From Streptomyces sp. M92 (GTDB taxonomy: Bacteria > Actinomycetota > Actinomycetes > Streptomycetales > Streptomycetaceae): a stretch of 64,000 nucleotides of DNA. The first letter of the stretch is position 1. Every line of letters starts with the position of its first letter. A program made the position numbers and the translations under genes. The notes under the pieces were generated by a model. That model saw nothing but the letters and a program-made list of their open reading frames with translations, was not told where the DNA came from and did no database searches. The stretch is taken from positions 310,001-374,000 of the forward strand of contig NZ_CP101137.1 in the NCBI RefSeq assembly GCF_028473745.1, written 5' to 3'. This document shows, piece by piece, positions 61,759 through 63,405 of the stretch.

Positions 61759-62406
61759 TCAGAGCCCGGGGCCGTCCCCCGGTTCCTCCTGGTAGGAGTA
61801 GCGCTGCTCCTTCCAGGGGTCGCCGATGTTGTGGTAGCCGCGCTCCTCCCAGAAGCCGCGGCGGTCTGCGGTCATGTACTCGATGCCGCGGACCCACTTC
61901 GGGCCCTTCCAGGCGTACAGGTGCGGCACGACCAGCCGCAGCGGGAAGCCGTGCTCGGCGGTGAGCAGCTCGCCGTCCTTGTGGGTGGCGAAGAGGGTGC
62001 GCTCCGCGGCGAAGTCGGACAGCCGGAGGTTGGAGCTGAAGCCGTACTCGGCCCACACCATCACATGGGTGACGGCCGGCGCGGGCGGCGCCAGGTCCAG
62101 GATCGTGGCCGCCGGGACGCCGCCCCACTCGGAGCCGAGCATGCTGAACTTGGTGACGCAGTGCAGGTCGGCGACGACCGTGGTGTACGGCAGGGCGGTG
62201 AACTCGTCGTGGGTCCAGCCGTGCTTCTCACCGTCGGCGGTGGTTCCGAAGACCCGGAACTCCCAGCGCTCGGGGCGGAACTTGGGGACCGGCCCGTAGT
62301 GCGTGACCGGCCAGCCGCGCTGCAGTCGCTGTCCCGGCGGGAGCTCGAACCGCGGCGCTCCTCGCGAACCGCCTTCTCCCGATCCGTCTTCCACCGGCTG
62401 ACCCAT
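61759..62406 (-). CDS. sulfite oxidase-like molybdopterin oxidoreductase
   Basis: Single-domain molybdoprotein of the sulfite oxidase/YedY fold (215 aa). Cys83 in ADLHCVTKFSMLGSEWGG is the molybdenum ligand; FPLRLVVPHLYAWKGPKWVRG is the pterin-binding end. There is no Tat signal, unlike MsrP/YedY, so it should be cytoplasmic, and no partner haem protein is nearby. The physiological substrate is unknown. ATG at 62404-62406. Confidence 0.88.
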   Translation of the reverse strand: MGQPVEDGSGEGGSRGAPRFELPPGQRLQRGWPVTHYGPVPKFRPERWEFRVFGTTADGEKHGWTHDEFTALPYTTVVADLHCVTKFSMLGSEWGGVPAATILDLAPPAPAVTHVMVWAEYGFSSNLRLSDFAAERTLFATHKDGELLTAEHGFPLRLVVPHLYAWKGPKWVRGIEYMTADRRGFWEERGYHNIGDPWKEQRYSYQEEPGDGPGL

Positions 62407-62483
62407 GCCTCCATCCTGACAGACCCGGACCGATGCCCCGGACCCACCCCACTTACATTCGGGTAATCAGCAACAAAATGGAC

Positions 62484-62516
62484 TAAGCCTGTACTTACTT
62501 ACTAAGTCTAGACTTA
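62484..62516. promoter_or_regulatory. two related 14-bp dyads in the bfr promoter region
   Basis: TAAGCCTGTACTTA (62484-62497) and TAAGTCTAGACTTA (62503-62516) share 11 of 14 positions; the second is a perfect palindrome. Their starts are 19 bases apart. TGGACT (62479-62484) and TAAGTC (62503-62508) with an 18-base spacer would put a promoter across both, so a repressor could bind here. Confidence 0.6.
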
Positions 62517-62588
62517 CTGGACGATCTTGGAAGCCGGTGCAATCATGCGGCGCAACACGCCAGTTCCCGTTCGAAGGAGCGTCAAGCG

Positions 62589-63092
62589 ATGCAGGGCGAC
62601 CCCGAGGTCATCGAGTTCCTGAATGAGCAGCTCACCGCCGAGCTCACGGCGATCAACCAGTACTTCCTGCACGCGAAGCTGCAGGACCACAAGGGCTGGA
62701 CCAAGCTCGCGAAGTACACGCGCGCGGAGTCCTTCGACGAGATGCGCCACGCCGAGGTGCTCACCGACCGCATCCTGCTCCTGGACGGCCTGCCGAACTA
62801 CCAGCGGCTCTTCCACGTGCGGGTCGGCCAGAGCGTGACCGAGATGTTCCAGGCCGACCGGGAGATCGAGGTCGAGGCCATCGACCGGCTGCGCCGGGGC
62901 GTCGAGGTGATGCGGGCCAAGAACGACATCACGTCGGCGAACGTCTTCGAGGCGATCCTCGCCGACGAGGAGCACCACATCGACTACCTGGACACCCAGC
63001 TGGAGCTGATCGAGAAGCTGGGCGAGTCGCTGTACCTGTCCACGGTGATCGAGCAGTCCCAGCCGGACGCGTCCGGCCCCGGCTCGCTGTAG
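62589..63092 (+). CDS. bfr: bacterioferritin
   Basis: Haem-containing iron-storage protein that assembles into 24-mers (167 aa). All diiron ferroxidase ligands are present: Glu18, Glu51, His54, Glu94, Glu127 and His130; the haem ligand Met52 is in FDEMRHAE. GAAGGAG precedes the ATG at 62589. Stops directly next to the convergent bfd stop. Its promoter lacks a DmdR/IdeR iron box but has a pair of related dyads. Confidence 0.97.
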   Translation: MQGDPEVIEFLNEQLTAELTAINQYFLHAKLQDHKGWTKLAKYTRAESFDEMRHAEVLTDRILLLDGLPNYQRLFHVRVGQSVTEMFQADREIEVEAIDRLRRGVEVMRAKNDITSANVFEAILADEEHHIDYLDTQLELIEKLGESLYLSTVIEQSQPDASGPGSL

Positions 63093-63317
63093 TCAGGCGG
63101 CTTCGGGAAGCTCCGTGAGGACCGGCTGCCCCTGGTCGGCCAGCTGACGGCGGGGGCAGGCGCCCCGGCCGAGCAGCGCCTGGATACGGCGTACGCAGCC
63201 GCCGCAGTCGGTGCCGGCCTTGCAGGCGGAGGCGATCTGCCGGGGCGTGCAGGCGCCGGCTGCCGCGTGGCTCTTCACCTGTTCCTCGGTGACACCGAAG
63301 CAGCTGCAGACGAACAC
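63093..63317 (-). CDS. bfd: bacterioferritin-associated ferredoxin (2Fe-2S)
   Basis: Small [2Fe-2S] protein (74 aa) that passes electrons to bacterioferritin to release iron. Cluster cysteines are Cys4, Cys6, Cys38 and Cys41 (VCSCFG and TDCGGC, C-x-C...C-x2-C). GTG at 63315-63317 is chosen because GGAGGTG lies six bases upstream; a GTG at 63326 is within that site. The upstream iron box indicates derepression when iron is low, when stored iron is needed. Confidence 0.92.
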   Translation of the reverse strand: MFVCSCFGVTEEQVKSHAAAGACTPRQIASACKAGTDCGGCVRRIQALLGRGACPRRQLADQGQPVLTELPEAA

Positions 63318-63386
63318 GCGGTTCACCTCCCGGGCGGGGTACAAGATCGTGCCGTACCGACGACGACCGGAAGGCTCGCTGATCGG

Positions 63387-63405
63387 TGAGGCAAACCTAA
63401 CCTTA
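63387..63405 (-). promoter_or_regulatory. DmdR/IdeR-type iron box upstream of bfd
   Basis: Minus strand reads TAAGGTTAGGTTTGCCTCA, 14 of 19 positions matching TTAGGTTAGGCTCACCTAA, the consensus for the iron-dependent DmdR1/IdeR repressor. It sits about 70 bases upstream of the bfd start. Confidence 0.8.

Follow-up and report, generated by a model that had tools for sequence, protein, structure and literature searches.

The bacterioferritin gene (bfr) of Streptomyces carries a 14-bp dyad, TAAG-N6-CTTA, just upstream of its presumed promoter, and this site was found in every one of 94 Streptomyces bfr promoters. The dyad has the geometry of one dimer site of a DmdR/IdeR iron box, and we tentatively propose, with a probability of about 0.43, that bfr may be activated in an iron-dependent manner by DmdR1/IdeR through such half sites.

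RESULTS

Two dyads between bfr and a divergent oxidoreductase gene

We analyzed a window of 64,000 nucleotides from Streptomyces sp. M92, in which bfr and a divergent oxidoreductase gene are separated by 182 bp (Table 1). The Bfr protein of the window is 100% identical in S. rochei NRRL B-2410 and S. mutabilis JCM 4400. The ORF that adjoins bfr on the other strand is presumably bfd, judging from synteny with SCO2114. Its two upstream iron boxes start 5 bp apart and match the 19-mer consensus at 15/19 (start 63382) and 14/19 (start 63387).

Table 1. Genes, dyads, iron boxes, and presumed promoter elements around bfr in the window
Feature	Position	Strand	Basis
Molybdopterin oxidoreductase (SCO2112-like), divergent from bfr	61762..62406	-	Pfam PF00174
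Distal dyad TAAG-CCTGTA-CTTA (TAAG-N6-CTTA)	62484..62497	.	Sequence; same register in other Streptomyces
Proximal dyad TAAGTCTAGACTTA, perfect 14-bp palindrome	62503..62516	.	Sequence and conservation
Probable -35, TGGACG	62518..62523	+	CTGGA in 94/94; 17/18-bp spacing to extended -10
Probable extended -10, TGC-AATCAT	62538..62546	+	Conserved TGNNANNAT position
bfr, bacterioferritin (Ferritin family)	62589..63092	+	Pfam PF00210, E 2e-30; ORF
bfd-like gene (bacterioferritin-associated ferredoxin)	63093..63326	-	ORF; start read from sequence; SCO2114 synteny
Iron boxes (DmdR/IdeR type), 5' of bfd	63382..63405	.	19-mer scoring

Two tandem dyads, 19 bases apart and spanning 62484-62516, had been predicted upstream of bfr, and both are present at these coordinates. 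The distal dyad (TAAGCCTGTACTTA) pairs at its outer 4+4 bases, with 4/7 pairs overall, the proximal dyad (TAAGTCTAGACTTA) forms 7/7 pairs, and their starts are separated by 19 bp. When the 182-bp intergenic region was shuffled 20,000 times with its dinucleotides preserved, 35 shuffles contained at least one TAAG-N6-CTTA, and none contained two. Across the whole window, TAAGN6CTTA with at most one mismatch gave four matches against a shuffle mean of 0.65; the only exact matches were the two bfr dyads.

In the genome-wide motif search that the original prediction had proposed, the pattern showed no excess over its reversed control; the strict form described below occurred once per genome in 39/40 Streptomyces. 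TAAGN6CTTAC was not enriched genome-wide (three forward matches and one reverse, versus one and four for the reversed control), nor was TAAGN5RCTTAC at up to one mismatch, either in the same genome (27 + 26 versus 37 + 32) or in the second genome searched, G071 (20 + 24 versus 59 + 48). The significance of the dyads therefore lies in their place and conservation.

The proximal dyad is conserved throughout Streptomyces bfr promoters

Our 94 Streptomyces bfr promoters were drawn from a single scan (its top 80 named loci), from the window, and from 13 bfr-bearing genomes chosen as negative for a stricter pattern; they are related to one another, and their counts are of non-independent events. The original prediction had staked itself on conservation upstream of bfr in other streptomycetes, and this it has: the proximal dyad is exact in 91/94 promoters and keeps 7/8 bases in the other three. 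Both arms are nearly fixed, and the six central bases are variable. CTGGA follows directly 3' in 94/94, a conservation slightly favored because the anchoring of dyads gave a bonus to sites with CTGG next to them. Bases outside the dyad are also kept, position -2 being A in 75 and G in 19 of the 94 and position +15 being T in all.

In a class-wide sample, the strict pattern TAAGN6CTTACTGGA occurred exactly once in each of 39/40 Streptomyces genomes. In 35 of these 39, it lies just 5' of bfr (coordinates compared by eye), and the other 4 had no listed bfr coordinate; in the 40th genome, G039, Bfr was matched but the strict site is missing. Beyond Streptomyces, 5 of 354 genomes contained the strict pattern, in matches that look sporadic or coding, none of which was recognized at bfr. 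In a set of 199 genomes, 18 had no match to another, stricter pattern. Thirteen of these have bfr, all with an exact dyad and a different flank; Bfr was not found in the remaining five, of which two are at least 90% complete.

A second, distal copy is mostly restricted to one clade

At the 19-bp offset, a distal dyad is exact in 35/94 Streptomyces bfr promoters and keeps at least 7/8 bases in 42/94. In a 108-row Bfr tree, one supported set of 47 rows holds 39 of the 41 tandem rows together with 8 single-dyad rows; one extra row, tandem but imperfect in its proximal dyad, carried a separate label. The tandem trait requires 9 changes on this tree versus 33.1 for shuffled labels. The distal dyad is thus a second copy, mainly of one Streptomyces clade. 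The single dyad probably predates the tandem arrangement, which some lineages would have lost or gained late. Both members of the predicted pair are real, but they are not equals: the proximal one is present in 94/94, and the distal one is clade restricted.

The dyad keeps a constant distance to the presumed promoter

The prediction that the dyads lie over the likely bfr promoter region agrees with the spacing to the presumed -10, which we assigned as the first TGNNANNAT within 45 nt. In all 94 promoters, this motif starts 21 nt (84/94) or 22 nt (10/94) past the proximal dyad. TGGACG, separated from the proximal dyad by a single base, is taken as the probable -35 because of its 17- or 18-bp spacing to the extended -10. 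The dyad therefore has the layout of an activator site, upstream of the -35 and at a constant distance to promoter elements that were themselves assigned from sequence. On this assignment, the centers of the proximal and distal dyads would lie near -44 and -63, respectively. The first position of the presumed -10 hexamer (62541-62546) is T in 0/94, and the TG extension is present. Farther upstream, an element CGG(G/T/A)CA, often in the form TTCGGGCAA, occurs within 65 bp 5' of the dyad in 61/108 loci; its variant in the window is TTCGGGTAA, at 62458-62466.

An altered dyad in a related genus and a kept one at a paralogue

Among 14 bfr promoters from a related genus of the same family, the exact dyad occurs in 3, and (T/C)GAG-N6-CTT(A/G) occupies the same place in 11; CTGGA is kept in 13/14. 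One of these related-genus regions (L324) reaches a 13/19 iron-box match. A second bfr in genome G026 is preceded by TAAG-N6-CTTC (7/8), CTGGA, and a -10 at the same spacing, as counted by hand. This paralogue (L250, near 3996) is 80% identical and sits in another genomic context, with genes resembling an iron ABC transporter downstream. In 14 bfr upstream regions from other families, T(A/T)AG-N6-CT(A/T)A was seen only in L331, within a 14/19 iron box, a comparison weakened by some wrongly called start codons. No dyad was seen at bfr in order-level relatives, in a check made partly by eye.

The bfr promoter lacks a full iron box

As predicted, the dyads differ from the 19-bp iron box of the bfd type, and they do not match Zur-like (8/15) or Fur-like (11/19) consensus sequences. 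The full 19-bp box (TTAGGTTAGSCTAACCTAA) was absent from all 80 bfr regions scored, where the best matches were 9-13/19 (13/19 in three regions) versus 7-14 in mononucleotide shuffles; bfd regions, in contrast, had 14-17/19 in 72 of 80 named loci. PWM scores of the 80 bfr regions averaged -5.1 with a maximum of 7.8, while every bfd box used scored at least 20.5, and the bfr regions were only slightly higher than mononucleotide shuffles (mean, -8.1; largest, 13.2). A complete DmdR/IdeR box at bfr was therefore rejected, its matches being near shuffle level.

The dyad has the layout of an IdeR half site

The IdeR box consists of four CCTAA repeats, of which each dimer takes the first and third or the second and fourth (PMC8464063). 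One IdeR dimer of Saccharopolyspora erythraea binds in vitro, with a KD of 78 nM, to a half site composed of two quintets separated by 4 bp (PMC8464063, PMC10317159). The minimum for IdeR is given as T at quintet position 3 plus C at position 1 or 2, and this minimum is insufficient, because the minimal NCTNN design was not bound by IdeR (PMC8464063).

Read in this way, the bfr dyad is TAAGN-N4-NCTTA, two opposed quintets 4 bp apart, with exact arms in 91/94. The right quintets of the 94 promoters are ACTTA (85), GCTTA (7), TCTTA (1), and GTTTA (1); the left ones are ACTTA (58), GCTTA (31), CCTTA (3), GCTCA (1), and ACTGA (1). T is found at position 3 in 94/94 on each side, and C at position 2 in 93/94 on the right and 94/94 on the left. 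The consensus spelling CCTAA is not kept: position 1 is C in 0/94 right and 3/94 left quintets, with T at position 4 in 94 and 92, respectively.

The dyad thus shares with the S. erythraea half site its opposed quintets, 4-bp spacer, C2, and T3, and in both cases the host is an actinobacterium in which IdeR has a single strong match. Unlike that site, the bfr dyad is RCTTA rather than CCTAA and is a candidate known here from sequence; the natural half site discussed is in the nuo cluster of a single species, whereas the bfr dyad is genus-wide and altered in the family. In a canonical iron box, such as that of bfd, each interleaved dimer site is T-N-A-G-N6-C-T-N-A, as is the bfr dyad, but the bfr site has no second interleaved dimer site.

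Iron boxes with TAAG and CTTA arms do exist: one is spelled TAAGGTAAGGCTTAC, and another, TAAG-GTTAGC-CTTA, lies 5' of a bfd-like gene (L321). The spelling TAAGGTAAGGCTTAC is that of a strong iron box at G000:C1:4110540-4110555 (L003) in the genome of the window and of another at L221; the L003 box sits between a siderophore-reductase-like gene and a GntR-like gene. The dyad pattern had 97 matches in two genomes, for which 60 loci were retrieved. Among 59 of these loci, 6 (5 distinct sites) have an iron box of at least 14/19, versus 2 of 4,772 random stretches, a retrieval that is partly due to the spelling shared by both. TTCGG stands directly 5' of the dyad in 11/94 promoters.

S. coelicolor has a second DmdR. 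The genome of the window has one strong match to PF01325 (72.4 bits), with the canonical SGPTVSQ helix, and four further matches near or below the 26-bit cutoff. Each of seven Streptomyces genomes tested has one strong match (69.7-74.1 bits, SGPTVSQ helix), others scoring at most 27 bits; none of the seven has a second strong match. The DtxR-family (PF01325) gene also persists in G157, G232, and G234, near-complete Streptomyces genomes that have no Bfr match at E 0.001.

Other candidates and recurring near-matches

SenR was dismissed as a reader of the dyad, since the SenRc sites described are GC-rich and unlike it (PMC4991794). A possible second regulon member, ACTAAGC(A/G)GTAACTTA, was set aside as well; its palindrome is TTAC-N6-GTAA, with a different center, which suggests a TetR-type operator. 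The site TTACTAAGC(A/G)GTAACTTA is found at G000:C1:1993826-1993843 and at L116, L130, and L147, 5' of an oxidoreductase-like gene, and recurs in many of the matches listed. The gene 3' of it resembles an (Fe-S) oxidoreductase.

The recurring near-matches inspected in two genomes were rejected as iron boxes, rRNA-like repeats, what looks like a ribosomal-protein region, or other stretches that are coding or resemble signal peptides. Two further near-matches recur in pairs: AGTAAGGCTTGACTTACT at G237:C12:98769-98786 and G325:C521:24974-24991, and ACTAAGGGTTACCTTA, which resembles an iron box, at G209:C259:42178-42195 and G235:C184:17615-17632.

DISCUSSION

We favor activation of bfr by DmdR1/IdeR. 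At the bfr promoter, the proximal dyad would serve as the operator; each dyad would take a single dimer of DmdR1/IdeR, the only DtxR-family iron sensor clearly recognizable in the cell. In this scheme, two such sites interleaved 5 bp apart would make up the 19 bp of a canonical iron box, of which the dyad may be regarded as one half. An Fe2+-loaded dimer bound directly 5' of the -35 would assist initiation by RNA polymerase where the -35 is poor and the -10 unusual, and bfr would accordingly be made when iron is plentiful. DmdR1/IdeR would also fill the full box at bfd and repress iron release. With RCTTA quintets in place of CCTAA, weaker binding would be expected at bfr, and storage would thus be switched on only after the uptake genes are shut.

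An activating role is favored from the mycobacterial storage genes. In M. tuberculosis, IdeR activates bfrA and bfrB, the latter with four boxes, one of which overlaps the -35 (PMC10317159). Like bfrB, Streptomyces bfr is a ferritin-type gene with upstream sites, one touching or adjoining the -35; unlike bfrB, where the boxes are full and Lsr2 repression is relieved, it has one or two half-length dyads. The original prediction that bfr may answer to a different regulator than bfd is borne out as to the missing iron box, but the need for a separate regulator is open to challenge, since a dyad with the IdeR half-site layout could let the same DmdR1/IdeR read both genes.

Several observations speak against DmdR1/IdeR. 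The IdeR consensus has C at quintet position 1, so the A kept there in 85/94 right quintets, with C in none of them and in only 3/94 left ones, points to another reader. At position 4, T replaces the A of the consensus, and an NCTNN target was left unbound by IdeR in the study cited above (PMC8464063). The full box is found in none of the 80 scored regions, and genome-wide the dyad pattern shows no enrichment. For S. coelicolor, a prediction of DmdR1 sites across the genome lists SCO2114, which the study also describes, and in its accessible text gives SCO2113 no site (PMC12161575). A look-elsewhere effect also applies, because the similarity was found after comparison with several known operators.

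A serious competitor, if itself tentative, is an undescribed dimeric regulator dedicated to bfr, which would bind TAAG(T/C)-N4-(A/G)CTTA beside the -35 and activate the gene; we place it close behind DmdR1/IdeR, mainly because the position-1 A is so well kept. The strict pattern is found exactly once in 39/40 Streptomyces, just 5' of bfr in 35/39, so a dedicated factor would have a one-promoter regulon, and with a single strict site per genome it would have been overlooked. The conserved bases outside the dyad (A or G at -2 and T at +15) fit such a reader, and among the matches listed for 199 genomes at up to one mismatch, only one other site recurs widely, with another center and near an Fe-S gene. 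The stricter pattern searched in the 199 genomes is also absent from G232 and G234, near-complete genomes in which Bfr was not found, although this absence says little because 13 bfr-bearing genomes lack that pattern too. However, inspection of the ORFs at 59.5-64 kb and, by eye, of the surroundings of the G026 paralogue brought no recognizable candidate gene; near-invariant C2, T3, and A5 in a 4-6-4 layout suit a DtxR dimer; and an autoregulated factor would be expected to show a second recurring site. That all bfr-bearing Streptomyces, and in altered form the family, might have such a factor unrelated to DmdR, with an iron-storage regulon of one promoter, is possible, though we hold it with slightly more doubt. 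It is unlikely that the dyad is instead a repressor operator, at which a dimer by the -35 and the upstream copy would block RNA polymerase until a signal arrives. Repressors also bind one base from a -35, a position that alone is indecisive, but the presumed -35 and -10 both fall outside the 14-bp dyad, with the second copy still farther 5'; a -10 without its first T in 94/94 and a TGGACG -35 would better fit a promoter in need of help.

Two further readings place the dyads in other hands. Binding by the OmpR-type response regulator CutR, which would put bfr into a secretion-stress regulon, draws on a ChIP-seq core peak of S. coelicolor at 2,271,015 (4.10-fold), assigned to SCO2112 and SCO2113 (PMC10433416), and on the junction of the tandem dyads, TAAGTAAG in 37/94, which is one base off TAAGTAAA in a table for S. 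venezuelae (PMC12802291). Despite this shared assignment, bfr differs from a CutR target in lacking the measured motif TAWATAAA, found in 0/94 upstream regions (other listed spellings in 1/94, L032). According to the S. venezuelae study, no targets other than htrA3 and htrB are shared by the two species (PMC12802291). In the genome of the window, TAAGN6CTTAC occurs only at bfr and at one iron box. CutR could account for binding where the dyads are tandem, though not for a dyad kept across the genus. Because its motif is missing from the conserved element, CutR was rejected as the main explanation, and we consider it quite improbable. That the dyads govern the divergent oxidoreductase gene and not bfr is scarcely credible: they do lie between both start codons, but the presumed bfr -10 follows at 21 or 22 nt in 94/94, the G026 paralogue keeps the site elsewhere (7/8, -10 at the same spacing), and the dyad is also found with bfr in L321, L323, and L324, despite their different upstream sequences.

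Expression of bfr was down-regulated in an abrB mutant (PMC7581861), and bfr was among the up-regulated genes in an aor1 study (PMC5733086); the accessible text of neither names a binder. In the accessible parts of the literature searched, neither the bfr dyad nor the switch-on of iron storage in streptomycetes is described. The bfr dyad is best filed as a candidate variant of a metal-regulator operator. A 2023 review states that IdeR half sites in other species, and their role, remain to be investigated (PMC10317159), and the bfr promoter offers a concrete, conserved case in which to test this question. If DmdR1 reads the dyad, one sensor would set both iron storage and iron release through two site architectures; if DmdR1 is not the reader, a further iron-storage regulator would await discovery in this antibiotic-producing genus.
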